From contig CM074857.1 of NCBI GenBank assembly GCA_037501455.1, forward strand, positions 103,883,501 through 103,947,500: 64,000 nt of DNA. Reading direction: 5' to 3'. Every line of letters starts with the position of its first letter. Position 1 is the stretch's first letter. Shown here in pieces: positions 24,046-64,000 of this stretch. A program made the position numbers and the translations under genes. The notes below the pieces were generated by a model that saw nothing but the letters and a program-made list of their open reading frames with translations, had not been told where the DNA came from and ran no database searches. The DNA is from Lantana camara. Its lineage: Eukaryota; Streptophyta; Magnoliopsida; Lamiales; Verbenaceae.

Positions 24046-24607
24046 AGCACTTCCTGGAGGAATGCTGGTCTGCCGACACCTCTCCAGCTCCCTCTTGCGT
24101 GGGGAACTTGATCTTCATATGATAAGTGGAGATAACTGCCTGGAAAGAGTTCATAGCTGGTCTCCCGAGTATGGCATTGTAAGCTGAAGGTTTGTCCACC
24201 ACCAGGAACCTCACCATCCGGGTCCTCATCCTAGGCTTGGCTCCTAACGTAACAGGAAGGGAAATCATCCCCATAGGTCTGACAACCTCTCCGCCGAACC
24301 AGAACAGGGCAGTCTTCACAGGTTCGAGTTCAATTTTTCCCAAATCCATATGCTCGTATGCCTCTCGGAAGAGGATATCCACTGAACTCCCGCTGTCTAT
24401 GAAGACTCTTCCCATGCTGTAGCTGGAAATGCTGGCTGTTATGACCAGAGCGTCATTATGAGGAGCCTGAATTCCCTCCAGGTCTTCTGGTCCAAACTGC
24501 AGCATGGGCTGGTCCTGCCTGGTCGACCTCCATGATGAACGATCCTGCCTGCGTGTGAAAGGCAGCCTCCTGCGTGTGTGCTCTCCTAGCCCGATGGGAG
24601 TCCCCAT
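24002..24607 (-). pseudogene. Aspartic protease of the Tat element
   Basis: The retroviral-type protease motif is VFIDSGSSVDIL, with the catalytic DSG. A later ILGRPAMNSF block is typical of the domain's second half. The frame overlaps the RT frame at 24002-24045. Confidence 0.85.
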
Positions 24608-24922
24608 CTGCCGGTCATCCCATTATCATGTGGATGAACCCTTTCTGCTGCGGAGCTTCCTCCTGCTCGCGCCTTCCTGCTCTTTCTGCTCCTGTTGGGG
24701 GTGCCTCAATCAAAGGCCTATGCGGTGAGAGGTGCCTTCTTTTATCACCCCTCTTGATTGGTGATCCCTTCTGCCGTAGTTCTGTTTGGGAGGAACCCCT
24801 CCTGGTGTCCTCCGTCCTGGTGCACCCCTTCCAGGTGCATTTCTTGCAGGTAAATTCCCTCCTGCTGAGTTCCTCATTGGGAACATCTCCCAGCCTTTCG
24901 GCCGATCTCGGCATATCAGTTC

Positions 24923-26622
24923 CTATAAGTAGCCATCCTGAATTAATCTCTCGATTTCATTGCGCAGGTGACGACATTCATCCGTGTCATGTCCATAGTC
25001 GTTGTGAAACCGACAAAACCTCTCTGAGGGAGGCATGTGGGGCCCATTCTCCGCATTCCGGGGCCAATTCAAGAGCCCCGTTCCTTGAATTTGCATGAGA
25101 GTTTGAGCGGGTGTTGTACGTAGCGGCGTATACCGGTCATACCGAGGCCCAAGGCTCAAGAGGTGCTCCCTCCTTTCAGGTATTCTGATCCTTTTAGCCG
25201 GGGCGGGCAACCGCCCGTCCTCCTTTCTTTCCCTCCTCCTATCCGCTGTTGATTCGTCCTTTCCCGCTTCTGCTTCCTCTGAATTAATATACTTTTCTGC
25301 TCTGGTTAAGAGGTCATCCCAACTGGTAGGAGGCTTCTTGGAGAGTGAAGTGAAGAATGCTCCTTTCCTCAAGCCCTCTTCGAAGGCACTAGCGCACACT
25401 TCCGCAGTAGCAGAAGGGACTTCCAACACAGCTTTGGTGAACCTGTTGATGTAACTCCTCAAAGACTCCCCCTCTCTCTGCCTTACTGCGAAAAGAGTAT
25501 TTGAGTTTTCTGGTAGCCCCTGCTGCTAGTGAACTGATGTAAGAACAGTGCAGTAAACTGGTCGAAGGAATGTATAGATCCAGGCTCAAGCTACCGGGCC
25601 CACTCTTGCGCATTGTCCGTAAACGTGGTCAAGAACACTCTGCATTTCACCCCTTCACTGTACTGATATAGAAGAGCTAAATTCTCGAATCGATCCAGGT
25701 GCTTTTGGGGGTCCGTTGCCCCATTGTACTCCGGCAGCCCGGATGTCTTGCAACTTGGGAGGAGTTCATCAGCTAGGATCCTCTGGCTAAAAGGGCCACC
25801 CCTCCTGGTTACTCTGGCAGGTCATGCTCTCATTTACCTCTCCATCTCTTCCAACCTCTGCTGTAACCTGGCAGCCCAATCGGGCTGCTCGGGAAGGCCT
25901 GGTTCTCTTCTTCCCATCTGGTAATCCACGGGTAGCGGTGGCGCCATTGGCTGCCATGCAGCCCTGCCTGCTGCCCCGTTTCTGATCCCGCCTGCTCCTG
26001 GCAACACCAAGGGGTCCCCAACTGGAGGTAAGCCTTCTCCAGCTGAAGGGGGTATCATTCTTCTCATGGTCGGTTCTCTTTCATGCGGGGGCGGGGCTGT
26101 TTCGCGCCCCTGGGCCAATGGCTGGTCTCGCTGCACCGTAGCAGCAGCTACAGCGGCGTTAATCCATTGTTGGAACTCCCTAGCTGTAAGGTGAATGGGC
26201 ACGTCTGGCGATAAAAAGCTACTTCCTGATCCACCAGACCCGTCAGCTGCTCGCTTAGCCTGAAACTGCATAGCAGCGGCGCTGCTCCCCAACAACACCC
26301 CCCCAGGTATATCTGCCACCCTGGTAGTCTGCTGGTGGTTGAAGTTATGGTTCAGCAATGCCTCCAGCTCTTCCGTAGATGGCTGGTAGCCCGCCTGCCT
26401 GCCTGCTCCTACGGGCAGGTTCAATCTTTCAAGGAGGGACGTCCTTCCAGGTGAGGAGCCTCCTGCACTTGGAGGGGTCGGCAGGCCTGCACCTCCAACT
26501 TCGAGGTTCTCGCTTCGCGGATTCTTCAAACCTCCCATCAAGCTGGATTCCGGGAGATCCGCGTGGTCCTTAGTTAGTGGTGTGACTTCCGTAACCGTAA
26601 TGACGGTGGAGTCAGTTAACAC
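24923..26622 (-). pseudogene. Gag polyprotein of the Tat element
   Basis: The frame 25834-26622 starts at an ATG 185 bp inside the PBS and encodes a Gly/Pro-rich N-terminal part. Position 24923-25462 encodes the C-terminal capsid part and a zinc-knuckle-like segment (CRFHNDYGHDTDEC, then HLRNEIERLI) characteristic of Tat gag. The central capsid region at 25463-25833 is out of frame, so gag is broken. Gag packages the element RNA. Confidence 0.85.
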
Positions 26623-26790
26623 GGGAATACTTCCGATGAATAGCGGATTTGAAGCACTCCCATAGCTTTTTCAGCACCTGTCGTTGCTGGAGCAGATGGG
26701 TTGGCTGAAGTTGATACACCGCTAGATCCGGTCTTGGAAGCCATGAGAAATCGCAAAAACTCACGCCTTTTGCTCGATTTAATCGCCTTC

Positions 26791-33401: not shown

Positions 33402-34997
33402 CTACAACCCCTCTTCCATCAAGGGTACTGGATCCAGTCTGAAGCGCTCGACAAACAGATTCGCTACTGCTTGAGCCTGTATAGTTGTACGAGGCTCGAA
33501 GCCGATGTCAAACTGGCTGAGTTCAATTGACCATTTTATTAGCCTGCCTGAGAGGTCCGGTTTCGAGAGGACTTGCTTGAGTGGCTGATCCGTAAGCACA
33601 GTGATGGAATGAGCTTGAAAATAAGGCCTCAACCTCCTGGAGGCGTTGACGAGGGCGAAAGCGAATTTCTCTATCTCCATATATCTCTTTTCCGCTCCCT
33701 GTAAAGTTTTGCTCAAATAATATATTGGCAAGTGTTTGCGCTCACGGACTGCAACGAGGACTGCGCTCGTGGCCTCTGCAGAAACGGAAAGGTAGATGAA
33801 CAGGTTCTCTCCGGGGACCGACTTCGTTAGTAAGGGTGCACTCGAGAGGTATTGTTCCATATCCTGTAATGCTTTCTCACATTCTTCGGTCCAGGCAAAA
33901 TTACGAGCGTTGCGTAAAATCTTGAAGAAAGGTAGGTTCCTGTCTGCTGAGCGCGAAATAAACCTGTTCAAGGAGATGATTTTGCCCACTAGCACCTGGA
34001 CCTTCCTGACATTCCAAGGGGAAGGAATGTCTACAATCGCCTTGATTTTCTCCGGGTTGGCCTCAATGCCTCTCTGACTGGCCACGTACCCCAAGAACTT
34101 TCCCCCTCGAACGCCAAAAGTACACTTGGAAGGGTTTAGTTTCATACCATAGTGGCGTAGGATGTTGAGGGCCCGCCAGAGATCGTCCCGGTGGCAATGC
34201 TGGCGCTCGCTCTTGACGATCATGTCGTCCACGTACACTTCCATGGACTTCCCAATTTCTCGCTCGAACATTCTGTTGATGCGACCCTGATATGTTGCTC
34301 CAGCGTTCTTGAGCCGAAACGACATAACTTTGAAGCAGTAAATGCCCACATGGACCACGAAGGAAGTTTTAGGGCGATCCTCGGGCGCCATGAAAATCTG
34401 ATAATACCCCTGAAATACATCCATCATGCTCATGAGCTCACAACCAGCCGTCGAATCCACTAGCTGGTCGATCCTCGATAGAGGGTAAGAGTCTTTGGGG
34501 CATGCCTTGTTGAGATCTGTAAAGTCATTACACATGCACCATTTGTTAGCGCTCTTGGGCACGAAAACTACGTTGCAGAGCCATTCAGGATATAAGATCT
34601 CTTCAATGTATTGAGCCTCGAGGAGTTTGTTGACTTTCTCCTCGATGACTTGCCTTCTAAAGCCATGAACGCCCCTCTTCTTCTGTTTGATTGGCTTAAA
34701 CGCAGGGTCGATATTAAGCCTGTGGACTATAACGCTCGGGTCTATCCCAACCAGATCCGAGGCTTTCCAAGCAAAAACATCCAAGTTCTCTCGCAAGAAA
34801 TCGATCATCATGATCTGGGCTGGTCCGTCGAGGTTCGAGCCTATCTGTGTGGTTTTATCTGGATTTTCGGGCTCCAATTCGATGGTCAAAATTTTTTCAG
34901 TGGGCTCAATCCGTACTTCTGGCCTCGGGGCTTCGAGCGTCCCGTTTCTTAATGGTAAGGCGGTCGGTTGTTGCCTCTGAGGGCCCATCCCTCTCAC
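33402..34997 (-). pseudogene. Reverse transcriptase of the integrase-less gypsy element
   Basis: A single open frame of 531 residues that covers the whole RT: a VFAWKASDLVGIDPSVIVHR entry, KWCMCNDFTDLNKACP, CELMSMMDVFQGYYQI (first catalytic Asp), VYVDDMIVKSE (YVDD), the thumb, and the connection up to DLSGRLIKWSIELSQFDIGF. It ends shortly before the first RNase H motif. RT copies element RNA into DNA. Best-preserved coding piece of this element. Confidence 0.9.
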
Positions 34998-35511
34998 TGT
35001 CCGAGGAAGACATTCCTACGGCGCCCGGGGGATTGTTTTCTATACCCTGGACGGCACTCGTCTCGCGCCTCTTGTTCTTCTTCTTGTAAAGCTTGGCCCT
35101 CTTGCGCTCGGGTCCATCTTCATCAAGCTTGGGAAAATCCACAGACTTTTTAGTGGATCCAGCTTGGATGGTCTGCTTGGGTTTATGACTTTGGAGTGAG
35201 AGGATGTAGCATTCCCAGGCTTCCTTAACATTGCAAAGTACTTCTCCTGTGCCCTCGGGGGTGGGGAACTTGACTTTCTGATAATAGGTAGAGATGATTG
35301 CCCTAAAGTTTACGAGGTCCGGACGCCCAATGATGATGTTGTAAGGCAGATCCACCTCAGCGACGGTATATAGGACGCTCAAAATTTTTCGCTGCAGGGC
35401 ACGACCAAAAGAGGTGGCCAAGTGAATTTGTCCGCGAGGGATAATCTCGGAACCCCCAAAGCCCACGAGGGCTGTCCGGAGGGGTTCGAGGGGAGTGTTA
35501 GTGATATTCAT
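34906..35511 (-). pseudogene. Protease C-terminal part
   Basis: Continues the protease started at the end of the gag frame. A PYNIIIGRPDLVNFRAIIST block matches the second half of Tat proteases. Separated from the catalytic DSG by a frame break near 35513, and overlaps the RT frame. Confidence 0.8.
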
Positions 35512-35514
35512 TTT

Positions 35515-37263
35515 TTAGAATGTAGAGTAAGGGAGAACATTCACAGAGCTTCCACTATCAATTAAGACCCTCTTTATAACATGATTGTGAACGTCTAAAC
35601 TAACCACCATGGGGCAATCAGAGGTTACACCAACCCCGTGGGGCGTTACAATGTGCTCTAGGTCTTTCTTAGGGAATCCTACAACTTCGTTCTCCTTCGA
35701 GCACGAGGATTCTTCCAGAGCATACACTGGCTTGGGCTTTGAGGATCTCTGATCATAGTTGCGGACGTGGCGACGCCGAGAGGAATTGGAATCTCCCCCC
35801 GAGTGTCCGCCGGTGATCATGTGGATGACGGCGAATGGTTGGTTCTCCAGATCAGTGACTTGTTTACCGCGATCGCTCGTCTCAGTGTGATGGTGGCGAG
35901 GACTCCTCGAACGCGAGCGGCTTCTCCCTCTGGTCCTGGCCCGCTCGGCGCAATGCTCATCGTACCTCTCCAGCACCTTCATAAATTCTTTGAGATGCCC
36001 CCCGACAATGAGCCTCTGGATCTCGCTCTCCAGCTGACGACATTTATTGGTGTCATGCCCTTTTTGCTTGTGGAAAGCACAGTGTTTTCCCGAGCACTTC
36101 TGAGCCTCGGTTTCTTTTATCTTGGGCGGTCTCTTGAATAGCTTTTTATCCGCCATAGAATAGACCTCCGTAATAGGTCTATTGAGGGGAATGCGCTCGT
36201 ACCGGCGAGGGGGTGAGTTTCTTCGAACGGGCATTGGACTGCGACGGCAGTTCTTGGACTCTCCTCTGTCCTCCGTGCCCTTATTGGTTCGAGGGGCGTT
36301 TGCAAGTTTCTGTTCCCTCGCGATGTACATGTCCTCGAGGGTGAAGAAGGAGTCAGCTATATCTCTGATTTCCATCAGCGAGCGTGGCTTTTTCTTTTCT
36401 ACCTCCTCCACAAACTCCTTGCTGACGTAATTCTTCATATTAATCGCCCCAAAGAGTACGTGCATCAAGAAATCCATCGAGGGCTTTTCCACCAACAGGA
36501 TCTCTTTATTGAACCTGCTCATGAAGGACCTGAGGGTCTCGCTCGGTCCTTGCACCAAGCTGTAGAGAGCTGTGGCAGCAGGTGCTGGTGCCTTCAAAGA
36601 ATTAAAGTGGCTCATGAAGGCTTCTGTCAGATCTCCGTATCCTCGGATGGAGCGAGGGGACAGCTTTTTGTACCACTCTTGTGCCATTCCCACGAGGGAA
36701 GTGACAAAAACTTTTGTCCAGTAATGACTGGAATGCTTGTACAAGTGCATCAAGTGCACAAAGTGATCCAGGTGCTCGGCTGGATCGGTGGTTTCGTCGT
36801 AGCGGTTGACGGAGGTAGGGATTTTGTCCTTCCCCGCGCGGGCCATCAGAACCTCATCGATGAGGGGAGAACCGCCTGTCAGAGGCCTGTGGTTCCCGCC
36901 CTCGTAGTCATACTCCTTATAGTTTTCTTCCCTCCAGCAACGAGAGACTGAGTTGCGTGGTTTTCGAGCGTCTCCGGCCTTGGACCTCTCGTCCCCCTCG
37001 TGGGGGATTTGAGTCTGCCCTCGAGATAGCTGTTCCACGATGTGCTGCAAGTCCTCCAGTTGATCTTGGACCGCAGCTATCCGAGGGTCGTTCCCTTCCC
37101 TCCTGTTCGTTCTTCCAGTGGCCCTGGATTGGACCTCCTCTTCTGCATTTCCCCTCGGGGGAGGGGCTTTCTCCTTTCCCATTGGACGCAGCTCTTGATC
37201 AGCCCTCGGGGGTGCATCTTTTCCTTGTGCTGGAGGTGGCGGCGGTGGCTGGGCCCTTAGCAC
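35515..37263 (-). pseudogene. Gag polyprotein and protease active site
   Basis: A 582-residue frame. Capsid-type segment KIPTSVNRYDETTDPAEHLD through EWYKKLSPRSIRGYGDLTEA and FMSRFNKEILLVEKPSMDFL; zinc-knuckle-like CAFHKQKGHDTNKCRQLESE; an Arg/Ser-rich patch; and the protease start VLIDSGSSVNVLPYSTF with the catalytic DSG. Upstream, 37294-37863 holds the Gly/Pro/Met-rich gag N-terminus in other frames. Gag packages element RNA. Confidence 0.88.
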
Positions 37264-37935
37264 ATTCTGGGCAGCAGCTAAGGGGTGAGTCTGCTATCCA
37301 CCCATTAACGGAGCTACCTGGGCATCTGCTCTCGAAGGGAAATAGACGGCGGTGAAGTGATTCCAGGCATTTTGTGCGGCCTGCACTTCGCATTGAGCGT
37401 ATAACGCTTGAAGTTGCTGCGGTGTCATCTGTGGCATTTCCACTCCTTGGATTTCCCTAGGAATGGAAACTGGGAGCCGTAACATGCCCACTTGATAGGG
37501 CTATACCATGGGCGCCATTCCTGGCATCATTCCAGGCATCGCCCCTGGCTGCATGTAAGCATACCCTGGCGGCGGCATAACTATGGAGTAGGCAGAAGGG
37601 TTGGTAACAGTGGTAGGGGGGACGAGCACCGCTGGTGGAGGAACGAAACTAGATCCTCCTGCACCATTTCCTCCGTCGAGGTGAGATCCCGGCACGGTCT
37701 CTTTCCCCTTTCCCCCATCTGCGACTAGAGGAGTACTCCCACCTACGGGAGTGTTGCCGTTTTGCACAGCGGTGGCGTTGGCCCCACCATCTGGGTTCTC
37801 CTCATTCACTGGTGGAAGAACGCTTCTGTTGTCGACCAAACCTGACCTTGTAGCTGTTACCATGATTGGTGTTGTTGGTGTTACTTTTCACTAGCTCAAA
37901 GAGAAAGAAAATGATGAAGATGAAGATGATGGCTT

Positions 37936-42299: not shown

Positions 42300-43640
42300 A
42301 TCAGACCCAAACCGAGTATTATGTTTAAGCATCCGTAGACACAATACTTTTTTTTTTTTTTTTGGTGTGCAGACATCCGTAGCTCCTTCGACAGATGCTC
42401 AAGCATCAATATGAGACTTGTCACCAGCAACAAATATGTGTGAATGACTCCATCGACCTCGATTGAACTGATTCCGGGCTGGCCTTTTTTCCAGCCCACG
42501 GGCCTTCATTTTCCTCTTGACGTTACTCGCCCCTCTCCAATTTCCCATTGCTGCGTAAATATTCACTAGCAGCATGTAATTGAAGTCCCCAATCCCCATT
42601 AGGGTCTAAACGGTATATATAGCTCATCAGCTTTTCGGCTTATTCGACATCTGCTGAGTTTCTACAAGCTGCCAGTAGAGAACTGAGCACCACTTCATTT
42701 GGCTTCATAGGCATGTTTTCTATGACTAGAAGTGCCTCTTTCAATATCCCGGCCCAACTGTATAGATCAACTATGCATCCATAATGTTTGATTCTTGGAG
42801 TAATTTTGTGTACTCTGTTCATGGCTTCAAATAATTTTAACCCCTCGTTTACTAAACCGGCGTGGCTGCGTGCAGTAAGAGCTCCAGTGAAGCTCACACC
42901 ATCAGGCTTAAACCCGTCGGATGGTTCATCCCACTATTATTGAGTTCCAGGAAACCAAGCTTCAGCTAGGCATTTGTTGAACACTTGGCAAGTTAATTCA
43001 ACACAACCGCACCTGCAATACATGTCTATTAATGAATTGTTCACGCGTATGTTATCTACAAACTTGTGCACTAAGACGAAGCGATGCAGCCACAGGTCCA
43101 AACCAAAGGTTCCCAGATTAGCAACTGCAGAGAGAACCGATATAATTGTCACGAAATCGGGCGGCATTCCCAACAATTGCATTACTTGGAACCACTCCAA
43201 AGCTTCCTCATACTTTCCCTTGTTCACGAAACCATCAATCAAGGCGGTCCAAGACACGGCGTCTCTTTCAGGCATTCTATCGAACAGCTTGATCGCTTCT
43301 TCGAACTCACCATTCCTCGTGAACCCGTTGATTATAGTGTTCCAAAAGACCTTATTACTGACACCCATATGCTCAAAACTCAATCTGAACAAACCCATCT
43401 CACCAAATTTCGAATACATATTGATTACAGCCGTTCCCACCATCACATTTCCAGCATCCAACCCCGATTTTCGCGCATACCCATGAATCGAAGGCCCAAG
43501 CAGCAAATGAATTTTTGGGGAGCTATTGAAGAAAAAATGATTTTGCTCTTGAGAACTACTTCTGATGGTTGTTGGGTTCAATGGCGGCGGCGGTTGTGGT
43601 GACGGCGGCGGTCGAGGTGGAGAATTCAGTTGTAGAGTAA
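42300..43640 (-). pseudogene. CLB19-like PPR protein pseudogene
   Basis: Close similarity to the plant PLS-class pentatricopeptide protein CLB19/PDE247, a chloroplast RNA-editing factor. The frame 42937-43581 has IHGYARKSGLDAGNVMVGTA, FWNTIINGFTRNGEFEEAIK, MPERDAVSWTALIDGF and SLIDMYCRCGCVELTCQVF, each a PPR helix pair in the expected order. It then goes out of frame and a segment is missing. A second frame (42640-42897) has TGALTARSHAGLVNEGLKLF and MPMKPNEVVLSSLLAACRN. A third (42399-42599) and a fourth (42278-42499) share the E-motif end KKGQPGISSIEVDG. At least three breaks and no transit peptide at the N-terminus: non-functional. A MULE is inserted 40-60 bp beyond its 5' side. Confidence 0.88.
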
Positions 43641-43689
43641 CATAGGGCGGCTCTTCAAATTACATTTGGCGTTGTTTGGATAGAATTTA

Positions 43690-43904
43690 GGGAAAATATC
43701 ACTTTTGGTCCCCCAGATTAACCCTTTTTTACTTTTGGTCCCATGCATTACAAGATTCTCACTTTTGGTCCCAAACAATACAAAAAGTCTCAGAGTTAGT
43801 CCCGCGTTAACCCTTCCGTCCCTTGACTAACGTTAGACCTTAAACTCCGTCTAATACACGTTAGGGCTGAAATAAAACACGAATTTGGGGCAAAAATTCA
43901 CCAT
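43690..43904 (+). repeat. Left TIR of the MULE
   Basis: 215 bp, inverted copy of 48336-48550. Contains three cacttttggtccc or acttttggtccc motifs. The transposase ATG lies 105 bp inside it, so promoter elements are expected in or next to the TIR. Confidence 0.95.
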
Positions 43905-44008
43905 ATTCTGCAATTGGGTTAAAAATTCCCTCTCTTTCAATTCAAGCAATTGCAACTGAAGTTATAGAGAAACAAGAGCATTGGAACGCGTAGGAGAAGG
44001 TCAGAGGC

Positions 44009-47000
44009 ATGGCGCTACGAGATTCGAGCAAAAACAAGGATCCCCCTCCATATTACCGTAAGTATGCCGATGCTTTTGCCTGGTTTACTGTGGAGAATAT
44101 TCTCTTGGTTGGTCCCAATTTGAGTACTTTGATGTTGTTGCTTTGTGCGTGGCGGTCCCCTCATGTCTGATTTTGTGATGTTGCTTTGTACTGGGTGGTC
44201 CTCCATGTCTGATTTTGTAATGTTGCTTTGTAGTGGGTGGTCCTCCATGTCTGCAATTTTCTAATCTTGGTTTGTTCTTAGTGGCCCACCTTGTCTGCGT
44301 TGTATACTGGTTGTGTGGGTGCATGGTCGGGGGGAATTTTTTATGTTTGCAAATTGAGTGGATATGTGGTCCAGCTTCTTAAATTTCCATTTTTTTATGT
44401 CTCAGATCCGGATGATCCAGCTGTGACTATGGTTATTCATCATGGGGGGAAATTTAGTGATCCAAAAAAAAAACCTAGGTATATTGGTGGAAAGATTGCT
44501 GTTTTTGACCACATTGAACTCAACCGGATGGGGTTTGAATACATGGATAAATTGTGTGAAGAAATTGGTTATACAGGGGGCTTCAAGAGATATTTTAGGT
44601 TAGAGACTCATGGGTTTGTCATTTTTTCTGAAGGGCACCATATTCTTCATGAATGTTTGATGCATGATGTAGATAGAGAGGTTCATATTTACTTGGAAGT
44701 GGCACAAAGTGAGTCATCTTCTTCTGACAGTGAAAACTTTGAAGATAGTGATTATGAAGAGTTAGATGATGATGAGACAGATGACACAAGAGATAAGTTG
44801 TTGTTTAATGATTGTGTTGACAAGGATGCAGAATGGGGGGGTCATAAAGCAACTGAAATAAATGAAAATGAGCTTAACCTGTCTGATCAGAGTGGTGATG
44901 AGAGCATGGGTCCCTTATCTGATTCTTCTAACTTTGACAGTAGCAAGGATTCTGATGATGAAAATGGTGGTAAGTCTAGTGTATTTAGTGTTGCAGACAC
45001 ATATGATCCCATATTTAAGTTAGAAATGGAGTTTGCAAACAAACATGAGTTCAAAGATGCAGTATATTCACATGCAATTAAGAGTAGAAGGTCAGTTAGG
45101 ATTGCAAAAAATGATAAGAGAAGGATATATGCAAAATGTAGAGAGAAAGGTTGTCTATGGAGGATACATGCTCTTGCAACTGGGGTTAAAGAATGTGTGC
45201 AAATCAGAGAGTATCAACCAAAACACACTTGTGAGGAATCATATCATGTTAAAAACATGACTTCTACTTGGATTGGGAAAAGATTTGAATATAAGTTTAG
45301 GTCAGATGCTACTAGAAAAGTGAAGGGTTTTAGGAGAGATGTTTCTAGACAGATGAACATACATGTTTCCAGAAATCAAGGATATAGAGCTAAGTGGAAG
45401 GCTTTGGAAGCTATTGAAGGTAGTTCTGAAGATCAATATGAACAATTATGGGATTATGCTGAGGAGCTAAGAAATTCTAATCCAGGAAGCACTTGCATTG
45501 TAACTGTTAAGCCTGTAATTGGAAGTGAGAGGCCCATGTTTGACAGGTTTTACATATGTTTTAAAGGACTTAAGGATGGTTTTTTAGCTGGATGTAGACC
45601 AGTAATTGGGTTAGATGGATGTCATTTGAAAGGGCCCCATGGTGGTGTTCTACTAACGGCTGTTGGAATTGATGCTAATAATTGTTCTTTTCCTATTTGT
45701 TGGGCTGTTGTTAGTGTGGAGAACAAGGAAAATTGGGAATGGTTTCTTAGTTTGTTGAAATCAGACCTGGAAATTGAACTTCCCCATGAATGGACATTTA
45801 TGTCTGATAAACAAAAAGGTCTTGTTCCAGCCTTTGAAACAGTTCTTCCCACAAGTCAGAACAGGTTTTGTGCAAGACATCTGTTATCTAACATGCAAAG
45901 CAATGGTGGTTTCAAGGGGTTACCATACAAGAAGGCCTTCTGGAAGTTAGCAAGAGCAGGAACTGTACCTGAATTTGAGGCAAGGTGGCTCAAATTAAAG
46001 GAGTTAGATGAGAAAGCAACTGAATGGCTCAATGACAAACATCCAAGCCAATGGAGCAGGTCACATTTCTCTACTTTTCCTAAATGTGACCTTCTCTTAA
46101 ATAACTTGTGTGAGTCATTTAATGCTCAAATACTTGAGGCCAGAGAAAAACAGATACTTAGTATGTTAGAGAAGATTAGGGAAGATGTTATGGAAAGACT
46201 TCAAACAAATAGAGAAAGAGCAAGAAAATGGAGAGGCAAAGTTTGTCCTAGGATCATGAAAATTCTCAGGTATGAGAGTTCTAAAACTGGCACATGTAGA
46301 GCACTAAAATCCACTGATATGCACTATGAAATTGCCTGTTTTGATGGGACAAGATGTGTGGTTGATCTTGAAAACCGTAGTTGCTCTTGTAGAAAATGGG
46401 ATATATCAGGCATACCATGTAAACATGCAGTAAGTGCAATTAATTGTCAAAAACTGAATCCAATTGAGTTTGTTGATGAGGTTTATTGGGTAGAGACATA
46501 CTTACAAGCTTATGAGCATTGCATACTGCCTGTGAATGGGTGTGAGAAGTGGAAAAAGACAGGTTGTATTCCTCCAGTTCCACCCAACAATGGTAGGGGC
46601 CCTGGCAGACCACAAAAGGCAAGGAGGCTTGAAATTGGTGAGAAGGCCAGAAAAACTAAAAGAAAAGTTCCAGGAAGACATGAAGGAATAAAGCTGAAAA
46701 AGAGATCAACCGAATACAAATGCAAGTATTGTGGGGAATCTGGTCACAACAAGAAGGGGTGCAGTAGAAGAAAGGAAAATGAGGCTGCTAGAAATGATCA
46801 ACATATGGAAGTTGGTGAAGACTTGGGTGGTGGAGCAGATTGGGGTGATGGAGCAGATTGGGAGCAGATTAGTCAGGTTGTCAGCAACATAGAAGCTACA
46901 CAAGGCAACCAAGCAAGCCAGGAGCAATTAAACCCTAGTTGCACTACTCAGATTCAAGATAACACTCCTCATGAACCATCACATATAGCTGTAAGTAATA

Positions 47001-47587
47001 GTATACCATTAATTGTAAATATCTAAACTTTATAACTGTTTCTCAACTGACATTAATTGTTGCTCCTTAGAAGGGAAGAAAAAGAAGGCAACAACAACTT
47101 AAAACAGGAGCCACACAAGTACAAGTCAACCTCCAACCTCAGACAACCAAGTTGACTGTAAGTAACTGCATTGGATTATGGACAATGATTGGTAATATTA
47201 TCAATTGTTTCTCATTTGTTATTTTTAATTATTAAGGCAAGAAAAAGAACCCTACGAAGTGTAAAGAATAACAATGGAAAACAAAGTCTGGGGGAAAGCT
47301 CAACAACTGACAAAGGCAAAGGAAAAATTGCAGCCACACAGTTTCAACCCCCAAGGCCAATCACTGCAGGAAGTGTGAAGTTCAGGAATCCTGTTCCATT
47401 TTCTCCAGATCATCCAAGAGTTCCAGTCTCACTCACAACTCAACCAAACATTCCTTTGAAACACAAAGCAAAAACAATTGACAAAGATGGGAAAAAGTAT
47501 GTGACATGGAACAGCCTAGAGAGTGCACTGAATCAGAGAAAATTGGAAATTGAGAAGAGAAAGGCAGCAGGATCATCAAACCTTTAG
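44009..47587 (+). CDS. MURA-type MULE transposase, four exons
   Basis: Cut-and-paste transposase of the MULE. Inferred exons: 44009-44057, 44406-46990, 47071-47157, 47237-47587; all borders are GT-AG, phases agree, and the sum is 3072 nt (1023 residues). Without the first intron an alternative start at 44291 gives a 911-residue frame for exon 2. Domains: N-terminal PB1-like part (DPAVTMVIHHGGKF, PRYIGGKIAVFDHIELNRMG); acidic linker; MuDR domain with the CREKGCLWR and KHTC zinc ligands; DDE core with D in PVIGLDGCHLKG (about 420), D in FMSDKQKGL (about 484), and E in NLCESFNAQ (about 586); SWIM zinc finger CSCRKWDISGIPCKHA (about 674-690); AT-hook-like GRGPGRPQKAR; CCHC knuckle CKYCGESGHNKKGC (about 790). 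The C-terminal exons add basic, repeat-poor sequence. No catalytic residue is missing. Confidence 0.92.
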
Positions 47588-47920
47588 TGTTTAGTCTATG
47601 TTTAGTAATTTGGTGTTTATTGTATCTATGTTGGATTGAACTTTTGTTGTTGCATCTTTTGTTTTTTGGTGTTGGTGGTTTGAACAATGTACAAATAATG
47701 CTACTTGGTATCTTTTGGGCTGGAATGAATGAAGCAACAACCATTTTGCTTGGAAATTGTGTGTTCAAGTACTACTGCAAAAAAAAGAAATCACACAGAT
47801 GCATAACAGTAGAATTTGCAAACATTATGAAATTACATATAGCCCCAATGGAGCTTACAAAACATTACATTGCATAGCCCTAAAGTAGGCATATTCCATA
47901 CCATGGACCACATTTACAAC

Positions 47921-48274
47921 TTACATAAAGCCCCTGACAGAGCTGGAAATTTTCAGAAGCAACATTATGACAACAAGAGAAACCAAAAACAACATGACAT
48001 AACAACAAATCTTCAGTCTCCAGCGCAGCAGTTCGAGCTCTTCATGCACCTGTCTCAGCTCCGAACGGTAGGAAGATAGCAGTGTTGTAGCTCTCCTATT
48101 CATGGGAGGATCCTTCCACACAAAAAACCCACAACCCCCAACAATGGTAAAGCAATTATAGAACCTTCTCCCATAGTTTATTTCAGTCCAAGAAGTGCGG
48201 AATGCAGCCCTTCGCCCACAAAAGCAGTAGACATCTTCATTAATCCCCGTCGCAGAGCTGTGTGCGGTTGACAT
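47921..48274 (-). CDS. GRF zinc-finger membrane protein encoded by the MULE
   Basis: A second gene of the MULE, convergent with the transposase. The preferred start is the ATG at 48274 (117 residues: MSTAHSSATGINEDVYCFCG); the frame is open to an ATG at 48355, but that lies inside the TIR. The GRF-type zinc finger is at about 16-55 (YCFCGRRAAFRTSWTEINYG, RRFYNCF, CGFFVWKDPP), with Cys-x-Cys and later Cys spaced as in the family. A heptad-like segment (SSYRSELRQVHEELELLRWR) follows, then a hydrophobic C-terminal helix (ICCYVMLFLVSLVVIMLLL). GRF fingers bind single-stranded nucleic acid in proteins such as APE2 and TOP3A. Small plant proteins with GRF plus coiled coil plus membrane segment are common. 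A role in transposition is not proven: it could be an accessory factor like mudrB of maize MuDR, or a captured host gene. There is no intron and no frame damage. Confidence 0.8.
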   Translation of the reverse strand: MSTAHSSATGINEDVYCFCGRRAAFRTSWTEINYGRRFYNCFTIVGGCGFFVWKDPPMNRRATTLLSSYRSELRQVHEELELLRWRLKICCYVMLFLVSLVVIMLLLKISSSVRGFM

Positions 48275-48335
48275 CTCCACTCCTTTCTTCTCCGCAATTG
48301 AAAAGGGATGAGAGAATTGCTTGAGGCAGATGAAA

Positions 48336-48550
48336 ATGGTGAATTTTTGCCCCAAATTCGTGTTTTATTTCAGCCCTAACGTGTATTAGACGGAGTTTAA
48401 GGTCTAACGTTAGTCAAGGGACGGAAGGGTTAACGCGGGACTAACTCTGAGACTTTTTGTATTGTTTGGGACCAAAAGTGAGAATCTTGTAATGCATGGG
48501 ACCAAAAGTAAAAAAGGGTTAATCTGTGGGACCAAAAGTGATATTTTCCC
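48336..48550 (-). repeat. Right TIR of the MULE
   Basis: 215 bp, inverted copy of 43690-43904 with one mismatch. The GRF gene starts 62 bp inside it. Confidence 0.95.
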
Positions 48551-48559
48551 TAGAATTTA

Positions 48560-56797: not shown

Positions 56798-57674
56798 GTG
56801 GCTTCACATTCAACGCCAAGTTCAGACGAGTGGATATTTGATTCGGGTTGCACCTATCATATGTCTCTCGTTCGGGTGGTTCTTCGACCTTGAAGAATTC
56901 GATGGAGGAGCTGTTGATATGGGAAATGATCAGACATGTAAAATAGCTGGGATAGGTTCAATCAAGCTACGGAATCACGATGGATCCACCAGAATTCTGA
57001 AAGATGTTCGGTTATTGCCAAGCTTGAAGAAGAATCTCATCTCATTGGGGGTCTTGGAGTCAAAAGGCCTAGTTGTGACGATACGAGATGGAGTTCTTAA
57101 AGCAACTTCGGGGGTACTCGTGATGTTGAAGGGTGAGAGGAAGAACAACTTGTATTTCTACCAAGGTAATACAGTTGTTGGGACAGTAGCAGCAACAACG
57201 ACTTCTAGCAGCAAGAAGGATGCTGAGGCAACAAAGCTATGGCATATGCGTTTGGGTCACGCTGGACAAAAATCCTTGCAAATTCTTGCAAAGCAAGGTT
57301 TGTTGAAAGGTACAAAGACTTGCAAATTGGAGTTTTGCGAGCATTGCGCTCTGGGAAAGCAAAGGAGGGTGAAATTCGGCACAGCTATTCACAATACCGA
57401 GGTTATTTTGGACTATGTGCACTCTGATGTGTGGGGACCTTCCAAGACGGCGTCACTTGGAGGAAGACACTACTTTGTCACCTTTATCGATGATTTTTCC
57501 AGAAGAGTTTGGGTGTTTCCTATGAAGCACAAAGGCGAAGTGCTTGGAGTTTTTCTAAAGTGGAAAACTCAAGTTGAAAACAGACTGGAAGAAAGATCAA
57601 AGTTCTCCGATCAGACAACGGCGGAGAATACAAGAGCGATCCATTCCAGAAGGTATGCCAAGAATACGGCATAG
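56798..57674 (+). pseudogene. Copia protease and integrase N-terminal half
   Basis: The protease motif is EWIFDSGCTYHMS (near 56828), followed by frame 56838-57674. Integrase: zinc finger with KLWHMRLGHAGQKSLQILAK and CEHCALGKQ, then the core with the first Asp in YVHSDVWGP and the second region HYFVTFIDDFSRRVWVF. A frameshift near 57590 follows. Confidence 0.87.
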
Positions 57675-58380
57675 TTCGTCACTTCAACGTAAGAGAAACA
57701 CCGTAGCAGAATGGGGTATCAGAGCGTATGAACAGGACATTAGTGGAGAAAGTTCGCTGTATGTTGTCTAATGCTGGATTAGACAAAAAGTTTTGGGCTG
57801 AGGTAGTGGCATACGCTCAACATCTCGTCAATCGTTTGCCATCATCTGCAATAGGTGGTAAAACTCCATTGGAGGTTTGGTCCGGGAAGCCTGCAACAGA
57901 TTATGACTCATTGCGTGTGTTTGGTTCTACCGTGTACTATCATGTGAACGAATCAAAGTTGGATCCTCGAGCAAGGAATGCGCTCTTTATAGGCTTCAGC
58001 GTTGGGGTTAAGGGATATCGTGTCTTGTTTCTGGAGGCAAAGAAGACGATAAATAAACAAAGATGTTACCTTCGACGAATCTGCCATTTTGAATAAGGTA
58101 ACTCAAGAAGGGACCGATGGTACTCCGAAGCAGGTGGAGCGTGTACCGAAGCAAGTGGAGTATACACCAGAGCACCAGAGCAGGTGGAGTTTAAGAAGAT
58201 AGTGGTGAGTCCAGCGAAAGACACTATCAATGATTCTTCTACGAAAGAAGAAGAGTTGGATGAAGAAGAGGTTACTACCCAAGAACCTCAACAACAACTA
58301 GAGCCAATTGCGATTAGAAGGATGAGACGAGAAATTCAGAAACCAGCTCGTTTTGTCGACATGGTAGCCTATGCACTTCC
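57675..58380 (+). pseudogene. Copia integrase C-terminal half and linker
   Basis: Frame 57728-58096 has MLSNAGLDKKFWAEVVAYAQ, HLVNRLPSSAIGGKTPLEVW and SKLDPRARNALFIGFSVGVK. The region around the integrase catalytic Glu (YTPQQNGVAER-type) is scrambled by a frame change near 57690-57725. The linker to RT is Glu/Gln-rich. Confidence 0.83.
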
Positions 58381-59897
58381 GTAGTTGATGATGTTCTATC
58401 CACATTTTCAGAAGCTATCCGAAGCTCAGAAAATAATAGATGGAAAGACACAATGGAGGAAGAGATGCAATCTCTTTAGAAGAATAAGACGTAGAAGTTG
58501 GCACAACTACCTAAGGGTAAGAAGACAATTGGATGCAAATGGGTATTTGCAAAGAAAGAAGGATTTCCTAACAAAGATGATGTTCACTACAAGGCAAGGT
58601 TGGTAGCTAAAGGCTATGCTCAAAAGGAGGGAGTTGATTACAATGAAGTGTTTTCTCCAGTTGTTAAGCACTCCTCCATTAGAATTTTGTTGGCTTTGGT
58701 AGCGCAGTTGAATTTGGAGTTAGCTCAACTCGATATGAAAACCACGGTCCTGCACGGTGATTTGGAAGAGAAAATCTATATGTCTCAGCCAGATGGATAC
58801 AAAGTTGCTGGTAAAGAAAATTGGGTTTGCAAACTAGAGAAATCATTGTACGGATTGAAGCAATCGCCGAGATAATGGTACAAACGATTTGATAAGTTTA
58901 TGTTGGGCCAAAGGTACACAAGGAGCAAATACGACCACTGTGTGTATTTGCGCGGGCTACAAGATGGAACTTACATCTACCTACTCTTATATGTTGATGA
59001 TATATTGATAGCATCAAAGAGCCAGGACGAAATTGACAAGTTGAAGGGTCAATTGAATAAAGAGTTTGAGATGAAGGATTTGGGAGAAGCCAAGAAGATT
59101 CTTGGAATGGAGATAAGCAGGGATCGGCAGAGAGACAAGGTTTGGCTGACTCAGAAGCAATATTTGAACAAAATACTACAGCGGTTTGGTATATGTCAAA
59201 ATACAAAACCTGTAGGCACTCCTCTCACCCTTCATTTGAAGCCTAGCAGCCAGTTATCTCTGAAGACGGAAGAAGAACAAGAATACATGGCAAAAGTCTC
59301 ATATGCAAATGCAGTTGGTAGCCTGATGTATGCAATGGTGTGTACCAGACCCTATATTTCACAAGTTGTTGGCGTAGTGAGCAGATATATGCATGGCCCT
59401 GGAAAGGCTCACTGGCAAGCTGTGAAATGGATTATGCGGTATATTCAAGATACCACAGATGTTGGCTTATTGTTTGAGCGGGATGAAACACTTGGCCAAA
59501 TCATAGTTGGGTACTGTGATTCTGACTATGCTGGATATTTGGATAAGCGAAGGTCTACAACTGGCTACTTGTTCACTTTAGCTAAGGCGCCAGTTAGTTG
59601 AAAGTCGACCTTACAGTCAACGGTGGCATGTCTACGACAGATGCAGAGTATATGGCCATTACAGAAGCTGTAAAGGAAGCAATTTGGCTTCAAGGACTGC
59701 CTGAAGATTTGGGAGTTGGTCAAAAACACCTCACGGTGTATTGTGACAGTCAGAGTGCTATTCATCTAGCGAAGAACCAAACTTTTCATGCAAGGACGAA
59801 GCATATTGATGTTCGCTATCACTTTGTGCAGGAATTCTCGAAGAAGAGAATGTTGTTCTTCAGAAGATTCGGACTACAGAGAATCCTGCAGATATGA
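58381..59897 (+). pseudogene. Copia reverse transcriptase and RNase H
   Basis: RT: IGCKWVFAKKEGFPNKDDV, ARLVAKGYAQKEGVDYNEVF and QLDMKTTVLHGDLEEKIYMS (first Asp; the usual NAFLHG is TTVLHG), then a stop at 58873. Next frame: YVDDILIASK (YVDD). RNase H: GYCDSDYAGYLDKRRSTTGY, then a stop, TDAEYMAITEAVKEAIWLQG and YCDSQSAIHLAKN. Two or more stops. Confidence 0.88.
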
Positions 59898-60382: not shown

Positions 60383-61767
60383 CTCCAACTACCATTACAT
60401 GGGATAGGGTTTTTATTTCAAATATATGCTTGGAAAGACTCCTAAAAAGGTTTACAACTACTCTATTTGAATTTTAGGGGACTGATCCTTAGAAAAGTCC
60501 TTTCTTACTTGGACTCTTCTATCCTTGTAGGAGTCCATCCGAGGTGGCTTCCTTCCTCCAGGAGTCCGTTTGAGGTGGCTTCCTTCCTCCAGGAGTCCAT
60601 CTGAGGCGCCTTCCTCCTGAGGAAACCGCTCACCGTATGTTCCTGCTGATATTAGTACGTGTGCGAGTCTCCTTGGTGAGCTTTGAGCTTGAGGATAAGC
60701 CCAATCTTCCTTTAGTCGTGATTCCCCCAGTTGTCCGGTGTGCTTATTCGTAAATGGGCCGAGATCCCGATGTGCTAGAAATAGGGTGCATCACTTTTAA
60801 ATCCAGTTTCATGTGACTTCTCCTAAGTTGAAATAAAAATATATTTTGTGTTAACTGATATATATCTTACAAATGTCCAAAGCCTATTACTACTTGTTGC
60901 AAATGCTAAAATGTCTAATGCCTCACCAGGAGTATTTTTGTAACTATTTCATCTATGGGGTCGAAATTTTCCATTATGTCGACGACCTAGTCGGGGGCTT
61001 GGTCAGATAAGTATGACGACTCGCTCGAGAAAGAACTTGTGGCACCTGGACTCGGGTTAGTTGCTGCACCCGAGCCTCAACTAGAAGCCCCAGAACTTGA
61101 CGAGCTTGAAGAAGCCATTGGGAGTCGAATGAAAGTCAAAATGGATCCAACCTCAAGTCCCTCAGTTTTGCCTTTTGAACTCATGTTTGTTCATCCACTG
61201 TTGAAATATCTAAATCTTCTCTACTCAACAAATACTTGGGTGATTAGATATCCATGTCTACATCCAATACATTAGCCGAATTAAAATCCATCAATATTTA
61301 AATAATAAATTTTTATTTACACAAGGGTTAATTTTTAAATGATTGTTATTAAAAAAAAAGGATGAGGGCTAGAGAGTTTAAAATTTAACCAGTTCGGATT
61401 TTATGTAATATAAAATTTTTAATTAATCTAAAGAGAATCTGGAATCCCAAATTCGTCAATTAATTTATTTTAGACCAACAAATTAATTTCTTTTCTTATT
61501 TTCCCGCCTAATTTATTCTTATCATGAATTAACTGATAAAAACAAATAAGAATTTAACACTGATAATATAATAAATACAGACGTTTTCGCCTCAAAGATG
61601 GATAAACGGATTCCATTTATTCTTCACACTTGTTAGTTTGTTTCAGAAAAAGTTCTTCACACTTCTTTTTTTTTTGGATTAATCTTCACACTTCTTAGTA
61701 GTATACAAAATTTGGATTAAGGAAAAATAGGGTTTTTCGAAAAAATTAGGTCTTGTGTGAAGACAAA
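60383..61767. other. Non-coding DNA with a 31-bp tandem repeat
   Basis: A 31-bp unit, aggagtccatccgaggtggc plus eleven bases, occurs almost three times at 60530-60620. The remainder has no gene that I can support; the frame at 61039-61275 has no domain. The last 150 bp are the upstream region of the next gene. Confidence 0.45.
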
Positions 61768-64000
61768 ATGGAATCTGAATCTGCCAGCGATACGTCGTAT
61801 GAGTCTTCTTCGTCTGCCGGCGGCGTCAGCGACCAGTCCTCTTCGTCCGATGGCCGTGCCTTGAGCGAATCTGCCAGCGATACGTCGTATGAGTCTTCTT
61901 CGTCTGCCGGCGGCGTCAGCGACCAGTCCTCTTCGTCCGATGGCCGTGCCTTGAGCGAATCTGCCAGCGATACGTCGTATGAGTCTTCTTCGTCTGCCGG
62001 CGGCGTCAGCGACCAGTCCTCTTCGTCCGATGGCCGTGCCTTGAGCGAATCTGCCAGCGATACGTCGTATGAGTCTTCTTCGTCTGCCGGCGGCGTCAGC
62101 GACCAGTCCTCTTCGTCCGATGGCCGTGCCTTGAGCGATAGATCTTCTTCCTCGGCTGCAAGCAACGTCACCGTCGACGAACGCGTGCAGAAATTTGACG
62201 GCAAATTTGACTACAAAAAGAAGTACGGAAAAGGGTTTGATATTTTTGTGAAGATGGGTGGGAACCCGGACCAAGAAAGCTACCGAGAAGCCGAACGTTC
62301 TATGCAAGAACGTTGGCGAACAGCGGTGCAAAATCGTGCAATCGGACGTCAGGGAATCGGATTTGGCCTTACAGATATTGGGGAGATTGAATTTGAGTCT
62401 GAGTTCGAGGAGGCCAATGCGAGAATTGGGGCCAACCTGAACGGCGATGAAGAAGAGTTCGAACAAGCAGAGAATTTCGATCAAGAAGAGGGCCATCAAG
62501 AAGAGAATTTCGATCAAGAAGAGGGCGATCAAGAAGTAGAGAATTTCATACAGACCAAGGAAACCAAAGATCAAGATCAAGAAGGGGTGAAGGCTGAAGA
62601 AAACATCACAAGGAGGGAGATGTGCATCTCCGAGATCAATGGGAATCGGATGTTGACTGGCATACTCACCACCGCTCAAGTTGAGGTGGTCTCAGATATT
62701 ATGACTGTACATCGGATAACCCAAGAAGAGTTCCATATACTATTGAGATCTCTTCCACAGATATCTTCGATAGCTCACGAGGTAATGGAAAATCTTTTTG
62801 GGAAGAATGAAGTTGTGAGTGATCTTTCTGTAGCTGGACGAGCAATCCCGTTGTATCAGCAGGACGCGAGTGAGGAAGCTCTTGAAACCATTACTGCTGA
62901 GGTACCTTTGACCACTTGATTCTTACTTCCTAATTTTACGGTGAAATCGAATCTTTTTTAAATTATCTTTAATACTTCAGCTTAAGATGTTTGGGAAGAG
63001 GAGCGTGCACAAGGATACAAAACTGCGAGATGAGGGAGGGCAGATTCTTGAGAAGGATGGGCTTCTATACAACTGTGCTTTTGCCCTTTGCGATCGGGGC
63101 CGGGGATTGAACCAATATGTGGTTGTGAATTCTTTTTGTCCCCAATATATGGTTTTTCTAATAAATTGTTGATGGACAATTTCTTTGGAAATTCAACAGC
63201 TACTGCATTATTCAACTGATTACAATGCCCGATGGCCGCCTCTACATGTACTATAAGAAGGGCAAGATTGGTGATGAGACAGGAGCTGATGAGAGTCTCA
63301 ATGAGTGGGACAATATGGGCAATGCAATCAGAGAATTTGCCAAACATTTCCAAGATTTGACAGGGAATGAGTTTGAACCATGGGATAGAGAGAAGAAAAT
63401 CCAGAAGCAGGAGCAAAAGTTTTTCCCTGTTGACATGGTGCGTATCCTCTCTTTTGATCCACACGATGAATAAATGTTATTAATCAACACTAATGATACT
63501 TCTGTTGTAGGATGATGGAGTCGAGGTTCGACATGGTGGTTTAGGCCTTAGACAACTTGGTGTGGCAGTGGCTCACTGTAAGCTTGAGCCGAAGGTGGCA
63601 AATTTCATGAAGGTTTTATGTAGCCAGGAGATATACAGGTGGGGTCCACATATACCGTCTGAATTATTTTTGATTGATTGATCAGATTACTGATGTATTA
63701 TTGGTTCCTGTTGCAGGTATGCTTTAATGGAAATAGGTCTGGATTTTCCGGATTTGCCGATCGGTATGGTAACCGATATCCATCTGAAAAGATGTAAGAG
63801 GCTTCATGCACTCCTAATTTTGTTGCTATATAATTATGATTAATAATGATAATATAATAATAACAATAATGCAGGTGAAGAAGTTATATTGGAGCTTGTG
63901 CATTCTCTCCGGACGACGAAAGAAAAAGGATCGAAGCTGGACGCTATGTGGTCTGATTTCAGCCAAAGAGTATTCACACTAATGCCTAAAACGAGGCCTT
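61768..64000 (+). CDS. PARP3-like protein with Ser-rich repeats and a G-patch-like N-terminus (3' end beyond window)
   Basis: Inferred exons: 61768-62901, 62981-63118, 63200-63437, 63511-63638, 63717-63793, 63875 onward. Exon 1 encodes four identical 30-residue Ser/Asp-rich units, a G-patch-like KGFDIFVKMGGNPDQ ... RQGIGFG segment, an acidic region and a part without recognised homology. Exons 2-3 encode a WGR domain (GLLYNCAFALCDRGRGLNQY, DGRLYMYYKKGKIGDETGAD, TGNEFEPWDREKK). Exons 4-6 begin the PARP helical regulatory domain (DDGVEVRHGGLGLRQLGVAV, NFMKVLCSQEIYRYALMEIG). This resembles plant PARP3, but its PADR1 and BRCT parts are absent upstream. PARPs add ADP-ribose to proteins in DNA-damage signalling. 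Five splice junctions keep phase, but exon 2 to exon 3 does not for any GT donor I could test, so the gene is either mutated here, misassembled, or two genes. The catalytic domain, if any, is beyond 64000. Confidence 0.72.
61777..62136 (+). repeat. Four perfect 90-bp tandem repeats in coding sequence
   Basis: Units at 61777, 61867, 61957 and 62047 are identical over all 90 bases as printed. The length is a multiple of three and encodes ESASDTSYESSSSAGGVSDQ plus ten residues per unit. The perfect match implies recent expansion or gene conversion. Confidence 0.95.

Follow-up and report, generated by a model that had tools for sequence, protein, structure and literature searches.

A young Mutator-like element of Lantana camara belongs to a transposon lineage that carries a GRF zinc ribbon gene beside its transposase

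A 64,000-nucleotide stretch of the Lantana camara genome (Lamiales, Verbenaceae; assembly GCA_037501455.1, contig CM074857.1, positions 103,883,501 to 103,947,500 of the forward strand), referred to here as the window, contains a Mutator-like element (MULE) with long terminal inverted repeats (TIRs) and two open genes, and raises the question of whether this element has moved recently and what its second gene contributes. The evidence described below indicates that it is very probably a Mutator-like DNA transposon that is structurally complete, has transposed recently, and carries two convergent genes, one for the transposase and one for a GRF zinc ribbon protein. The MULE lineage to which this young element belongs bears GRF genes, and the element's second gene recurs, in the same position and orientation, beside related transposases elsewhere in the genome.

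The original prediction, made from the DNA letters alone, described a young, structurally complete MULE with a perfect 9-bp target duplication, 215-bp TIRs differing by one mismatch, intact open frames, and a transposase with three DDE residues, a SWIM finger, and a CCHC knuckle. The structure is exact in all of these respects: the two copies of the duplication agree at 9/9 positions with the predicted coordinates (Table 1), the TIRs differ once over the first 215 bp and extend to 219 bp with 2 mismatches (99.1% identity), both frames are open, and the transposase residues all fall in conserved columns. The features expected of the MULE superfamily are present (a DDE domain, a 9-bp duplication where 8-11 bp is expected, long TIRs, and dispersed copies), and the complete transposase sets the element apart from Pack-MULEs, which carry captured host fragments without a transposase. 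The transposase gene begins, with exon 1, 100 bp inward of the left TIR and the GRF gene 57 bp inward of the right one. The second gene converges with the transposase and begins inside the opposite TIR, as in MuDR-type elements; this layout is common to three divergent relatives (L066, L068, and L069). The top match to the TIR in the window outside the element is at chance level (E 0.35). A further remark, that MULEs of the region are mostly short or dead, could not be confirmed, as nothing else in the window was found to be related to the transposase or the GRF protein.

The spliced transposase model comprises four exons and three introns, all with GT/AG borders, and encodes 1,023 amino acids. 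Support for exon 1 comes from the alignment of two database relatives (P0001, P0003), which begins at residue 1, and for the last exons from that of a third (P0009), which covers residues 900-1012; the exon 4 frame also has the best codon-use score of the six frames. The tandem repeat in intron 1 contains GGTCC in three of its four units. The main open reading frame matches DBD_Tnp_Mut (1.2e-13), MULE (PF10551, 2.3e-15), and SWIM (2.3e-9) in Pfam. In an alignment with the best 120 of 604 database relatives, 110 columns are at least 90% conserved, of which the window protein matches 109 and differs at residue 544. These columns include D420, D484, and E586, which we take to be the catalytic triad from the MULE signature, the SWIM residues C676, C678, C688, and H690, and a C-X2-C-X4-H-X4-C knuckle (C789, C792, H797, and C802). 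The assignment of the triad agrees with the Foldseek match of the AlphaFold model (mean predicted local distance difference test score, pLDDT, 79.9) to the transposase of ISCth4 (E 1.6e-6), presumably a member of the IS256 family; the DNA-binding part matches AFT2 (E 1.3e-3). Among the matches listed, the closest relatives are from Lamiales (Buddleja and Sesamum; P0001, 53% identity over 98%). Given the base composition, an open frame of 1,023 codons has a chance probability of ~2e-33 (~2e-4 for the 117 codons of the second gene), and the ratio of nonsynonymous to synonymous substitution (dN/dS) of the transposase is 0.19-0.31 between the window copy and four older copies. Scans of viral contigs with the transposase and the TIR boxes described below gave no matches.

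Evidence for recent movement comes from copies in the 1.27-Gb host assembly, in which the TIR search scored 40 matches among 171 candidates, a count in which one element can appear with both of its TIRs. Two sister copies of exactly 4,861 bp (C7:8229775-8234635 and C6:100006595-100011455) show 9 and 11 differences, respectively, from the window copy, with 8 between the two sisters, and the three near-identical copies lie on three contigs. The C6 sister has its own target duplication, TCTGGTTTA; the C7 sister sits in a TA run, where a duplication is present with at least 9 bp repeated and an exact length that is indeterminable; and the 500-bp flanks of both are without similarity to those of the window copy. 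Because the flanks are unrelated and the sisters carry their own duplications, the near-identical copies arose by transposition and not by segmental duplication. The pairwise distances correspond to 0.12-0.16 million years at 7e-9 substitutions per site per year and to 0.41-0.57 million years at 2e-9, the two rates used for dating; TIR identity was not taken as a clock, because a DNA transposon may insert with TIRs that already differ. Recent transposition of the element is therefore well supported. Near-identical copies with different flanks are what the original prediction had proposed to look for with the TIR, and its descriptions of the element as young and very recently active are sustained with respect to recent movement.

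The element may still be active; both genes are open in the C7 sister as in the window copy (a stop interrupts the transposase of the C6 sister). A reading only a little less probable than its contrary is that the element, after moving in the past few hundred thousand years, has become a relic fully silenced by the host. Such a history would suit the small number of near-identical full-length copies (three among the 40 scored matches, one of them with the transposase stop) and the broken transposases of the four aligned older long copies (L042-L045, with aligned pieces ~88-94% alike), but the sequence gives no sign of silencing, and two copies retain both genes open. Two chimeric copies (L041 and L053/L054), namely a C10 copy of 3,147 bp and a C6 copy with TIRs 14.6 kb apart, are 99.2-99.9% like the window in their left part and 94-95% in their right part, a pattern suggestive of template switching or of recombination between subfamilies. 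Seven short elements detected through their TIRs (L046-L052, 1.3-1.6 kb), six of which have a perfect duplication of 8-10 bp as determined by script, contain no match to the GRF gene or the transposase and are probable non-autonomous derivatives.

The second gene, which had been called intact and left without a name, is indeed intact and encodes a GRF zinc ribbon protein: PF06839 is its sole Pfam match (4.5e-8, 33.5 bits versus a cut-off of 25.9). Across 45 sequences, C17 and C19 are invariant and C41 and C48 are at least 90% conserved, making these the putative zinc ligands. The structural model (pLDDT 89) consists of a beta ribbon followed by a single long helix (residues 60-116), and its top solved matches are the GRF domains of NEIL3 (probability 0.99-1.00). 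Residues 88-108 are strongly hydrophobic (best 19-residue mean 3.06) and are predicted to form a C-terminal membrane anchor. The frame is whole in eight of ten copies of the window family (the window copy, L039, L040, L041, L042, L043, L053, and L056), has lost its start in L044, and has a stop in L045; an eleventh copy, L058, is cut short. A plain database search with the window protein returned nothing at E 0.01 (11 candidates), and the database GRF proteins, 29-56% identical to the window protein, were collected as the best 120 of 214 proteins in an alignment search that included four invented bait sequences, on which its E-values lean. Several observations count against this identification or its details: the window protein has Asn at column 59, where Cys is nearly invariant among the 45 sequences; the Foldseek E-values against NEIL3 are weak (0.019-0.1); 69 of the 120 listed database GRF proteins have no stretch above the hydropathy cut-off used; and the GRF frame is only narrowly the best of six by transposase codon use, with a score below zero (-0.087 versus -0.098).

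The association of this gene with the transposase extends well beyond the window family. The genome was searched with the GRF protein (best 150 of 1,329 candidates), with the Pfam model (best 150 of 1,512 candidates), and with the transposase (52 loci scored out of 5,787 candidates; 52 of 65 rows were used in counting pairs, the other 13 being further pieces of the same loci). A listed GRF gene lies within 8 kb of 32 of the 52 transposase loci, and in every one of the 32 it is on the 3' side and points toward the transposase, whereas random shifts (n = 2,000) give a mean of 0.095 pairings and a maximum of 2. Six of these pairs belong to the window's own family; in the remaining 26, the GRF protein is 37-49% identical to that of the window. 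The possibility that GRF genes accompany any MULE was rejected, as none of the best 150 GRF matches lies within 15 kb of any PF10551 locus compared, these loci being the first 110 of 150 rows. Adjacent locus tags for a GRF gene and a transposase occur in two other genera (Sesamum radiatum, Sradi_3719900/3720000; Buddleja alternifolia, Bualt18G0011800/0011900), with chance probabilities of ~0.001 and ~0.009 under assumed totals of 50,000 and 35,000 genes, respectively; this comparison covered 13 GRF and 39 transposase tags in four species and excluded GRF matches from species without a listed transposase.

We also read ten of the more divergent GRF loci (33-69% identity to the GRF protein of the window), eight of them hand-picked and two representing the 131-aa and 192-aa groups. 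At seven of the ten (L061, L062, L063, L065, L066, L068, and L069), pieces of a transposase face the GRF gene in convergent orientation, and the GRF proteins of these seven are 33-48% identical to that of the window. TIRs were found at L066 (170 bp, 99.4%), L068 (127 bp, 98.4%), L069 (~237 bp, 97%), L061 and L062 (~202 bp, 89-90%), and L065 (136 bp, 93%), with 9- or 10-bp duplications at L061, L062, L066, and L068; a target-site duplication was looked for at L065 and not found. Among the matches listed, L066 and many 155-aa GRF frames, 38-40% identical to the window's, make up a second GRF-MULE family, which may also be young because the TIRs of the copy that was read are so alike.

Other counts limit how general the association can be. 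The 32 pairs are not independent, consisting of the six of the window's family and of further groups of alike copies, and for the other 20 of the 52 transposase loci no GRF gene is listed within 8 kb. Three of these 20 have one ~12 kb away (C11:76446388, C6:18757040, and C11:74717246), which fits a nested insertion; the other 17 comprise 14 more distant transposases (41-49%) and three at 50-52%. Locus L067, one of those without a listed GRF gene, has neither a GRF gene nor a TIR in the 7 kb read, and the GRF gene is therefore not universal. Conversely, no transposase was present in the stretch read at three of the divergent GRF loci (L059, L060, and L064). In a quick-method tree of 77 transposases, which does not amount to a test of single origin, GRF-linked transposases occur in both main branches (each with Shimodaira-Hasegawa-like approximate likelihood-ratio support, SH-aLRT, of 86) of a 60-row clade, and the association may therefore be old, with losses.

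Selection on the GRF gene was assessed from dN/dS in ten pairs, five of which do not overlap and were pooled, giving a ratio of 0.36 (Fisher P 5e-12). The pooled pairs are window-L042 (0.38), L061-L062 (0.40), L063-L064 (1.32, from 11 changes), L059-L060 (0.67), and L068-L069 (0.12, P 1e-14, with a synonymous divergence, dS, of 1.46), and the others are window-L059 (0.62), L062-L063 (0.31), L066-L065 (0.78), window-L066 (0.52), and L066-L068 (0.22). The signal is uneven in ways that weaken it: most of the pooled P value comes from L068-L069, whose dS is near saturation; two of the five pooled pairs (L063-L064 and L059-L060) are non-significant singly; and selection is weak in the window's own family (neutral simulation P 0.03-0.11). 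The survival of whole GRF frames beside dead transposases was dropped as proof of selection, the GRF frame being 9 times shorter. On the basis of position, orientation, and substitution pattern taken together, the GRF gene as a constrained second gene of this MULE lineage in this genome is supported.

The TIRs contain a further ordered feature, an array of three short boxes in a 30-bp phase in each TIR (Table 1), a count reached in none of 5000 shuffles. In the window family and L061, the motif TTTTNGTCC occupies TIR positions 14, 44, and 74; in L066 it occupies positions 14, 44, and 105, and the boxes are kept although the outermost TIR bases differ (GGGAAAATATCA versus GAGGAAATTGCTA). Two of the three boxes occur per TIR in L062, while among the older relatives one is kept in L045 and two in L051 in the TIR read. 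The array was rejected as a hallmark of all GRF-MULEs, as the TIRs of L068 have no TTTTNGTCC box (L065 and L069 were outside the scan). A spacing of 30 bp, about three helical turns, would suit binding by a multimeric transposase.

A mechanism consistent with these features would begin with the transposase binding the phased TTTTNGTCC boxes in both TIRs and synapsing the element ends, followed by movement through DDE chemistry with a 9-bp staggered cut, both genes presumably being driven by promoters in the TIRs. By analogy with the reported need for mudrB in MuDR integration, the GRF protein could act as a nucleic-acid-binding helper where the DNA of the transposition intermediate is single-stranded or gapped, could be held at the nuclear envelope or endoplasmic reticulum by its predicted tail anchor, and could be needed for efficient reinsertion or repair. 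This role of a membrane-held helper is put forward tentatively, as a possibility that falls well short of being probable.

Two other roles of the GRF gene have to be considered beside that of a reinsertion helper. In the first, which is improbable without being negligible, the GRF protein would be an anti-silencing factor like VANC of the Arabidopsis VANDAL elements, binding non-coding element DNA and removing repressive marks while the transposase alone performs the chemistry. Like VANC, the GRF gene is an extra gene beside a transposase, and where excerpts of PMC5735166 and PMC10398659 give tandem repeats in non-coding regions as VANC targets, the present element has phased TIR boxes and a tandem repeat in intron 1. 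A membrane anchor would be odd for a chromatin factor, however; the boxes are equally expected as transposase sites, and L068 has a GRF gene without boxes. The second possibility, a host gene captured in the manner of Pack-MULEs and carried as a passenger without a role for the element, draws on the frequency of host-gene capture by MULEs, on the marginal constraint in the window's family, and on the two of five pooled pairs that show none singly, but is very unlikely in view of the constant side and orientation in 32/32 paired loci (26 of them with a GRF protein only 37-49% identical to the window's), the dN/dS of 0.12 for L068-L069, and the adjacent tags in two other genera. Finally, segmental or assembly duplication of the near-identical copies, with which near-identity by itself would be compatible, is hardly credible given 500-bp flanks that are unrelated, direct repeats particular to each copy, and locations on three contigs.

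Beyond the element, the window contains a minus-strand PPR-repeat frame at 42937-43659 (presumably CLB19-like), which starts 22 bp to the left of the insertion. As the first ATG of this frame lies well within it, at 43443, the frame looks like a truncated PPR gene. A plus-strand open frame at 61750-62919 has a four-fold serine-rich repeat of ~30 residues per unit and no Pfam match. Retrotransposon pieces lie at 20778-26670, 33402-37293, and 56799-59601, and three frames tested have Pfam matches related to reverse transcriptase, integrase, or gag.

Table 1. Features of the Mutator-like element, in window coordinates
Feature	Coordinates	Strand	Remarks
MULE element	43690-48550		4,861 bp; bounded by the 9-bp duplication
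Left target-site duplication, TAGAATTTA	43681..43689	.	identical to 48551-48559, 9/9
Left TIR	43690..43908	+	219 bp; 2 mismatches to right TIR
Three TTTTGGTCC boxes	43703..43771	+	TIR positions 14, 44, 74; 30-bp phase; proposed transposase binding sites
Transposase exon 1 (inferred)	44009..44057	+	GT donor at 44058
Intron 1 (inferred)	44058..44405	+	splice signals; contains tandem repeat
Tandem repeat in intron 1	44119-44289		4 copies of 42-44 bp each
Transposase exon 2	44406..46990	+	DNA-binding domain, DDE domain, SWIM finger, CCHC knuckle
Transposase exon 3 (inferred)	47071..47157	+	splice signals
Transposase exon 4 (inferred)	47237..47587	+	includes stop codon
Second gene, GRF zinc ribbon	47921..48274	-	117 aa; Pfam, model, alignment
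Right TIR	48332..48550	-	219 bp; gap-free alignment to left TIR
Mirror array of three TTTTGGTCC boxes	48469..48537	-	
Right target-site duplication, TAGAATTTA	48551..48559	.	copy of left duplication

These results add a recurrent type of accessory gene to those of plant MULEs, beside mudrB, PMD, ULP1, and VANC, and, given the predicted membrane anchor, one may ask whether transposition or its control includes a membrane-linked step. GRF-MULEs also offer an explanation for the many short proteins annotated as 'GRF-type domain-containing' in plants, and work on GRF function could well start from this young family, in which two copies have both genes open. It is conceivable, if doubtful, that the element represents a large plant MULE lineage with an old, selected, tail-anchored GRF protein tethering element DNA or a transposition intermediate at the nuclear envelope or endoplasmic reticulum, and that much of the very large plant 'GRF-type' family is transposon-encoded and not host-encoded. 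A link between GRF proteins and MULEs was not found in the open-licence literature as judged by titles and the start of abstracts.

Amongst known systems, MuDR of maize has a convergent gene layout and TIRs of about 200 bp. The present element resembles MuDR (mudrA and mudrB) in combining a transposase and a second gene within long TIRs with a 9-bp duplication, and, judged by the Pfam match, differs in the kind of second gene, which here encodes a GRF zinc ribbon protein predicted to be tail-anchored. Excerpts of PMC6446971 describe two open reading frames and long TIRs for MuDR and an apparent requirement of mudrB for integration. VANDAL elements with VANC likewise, as far as excerpts describe them, are MULEs with an extra gene and repeated motifs in non-coding DNA, the extra gene here being GRF by its Pfam match; VANDALs are termed non-TIR in part of PMC13317346, whereas table 1 of PMC6446971 gives TIRs of 46-174 bp. 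MULEs with PMD or ULP1 (KIU) share the presence of an accessory gene, with a different domain in the present case: PMD is often antisense according to the same table, ULP1 is described in an excerpt of PMC13317346 as strongly conserved in eudicots, and the extra domains tabulated in PMC6446971 (PMD, FAR1, SET, an ovarian-tumour gene, and others) do not include GRF. With the GRF zinc ribbon proteins (e.g., NEIL3 and the plant 'GRF-type domain-containing' proteins), the second gene shares a zinc-ribbon fold and conserved cysteines; unlike the GRF domains of NEIL3, which belong to a repair enzyme, it encodes a 117-aa transposon protein with a predicted tail anchor.

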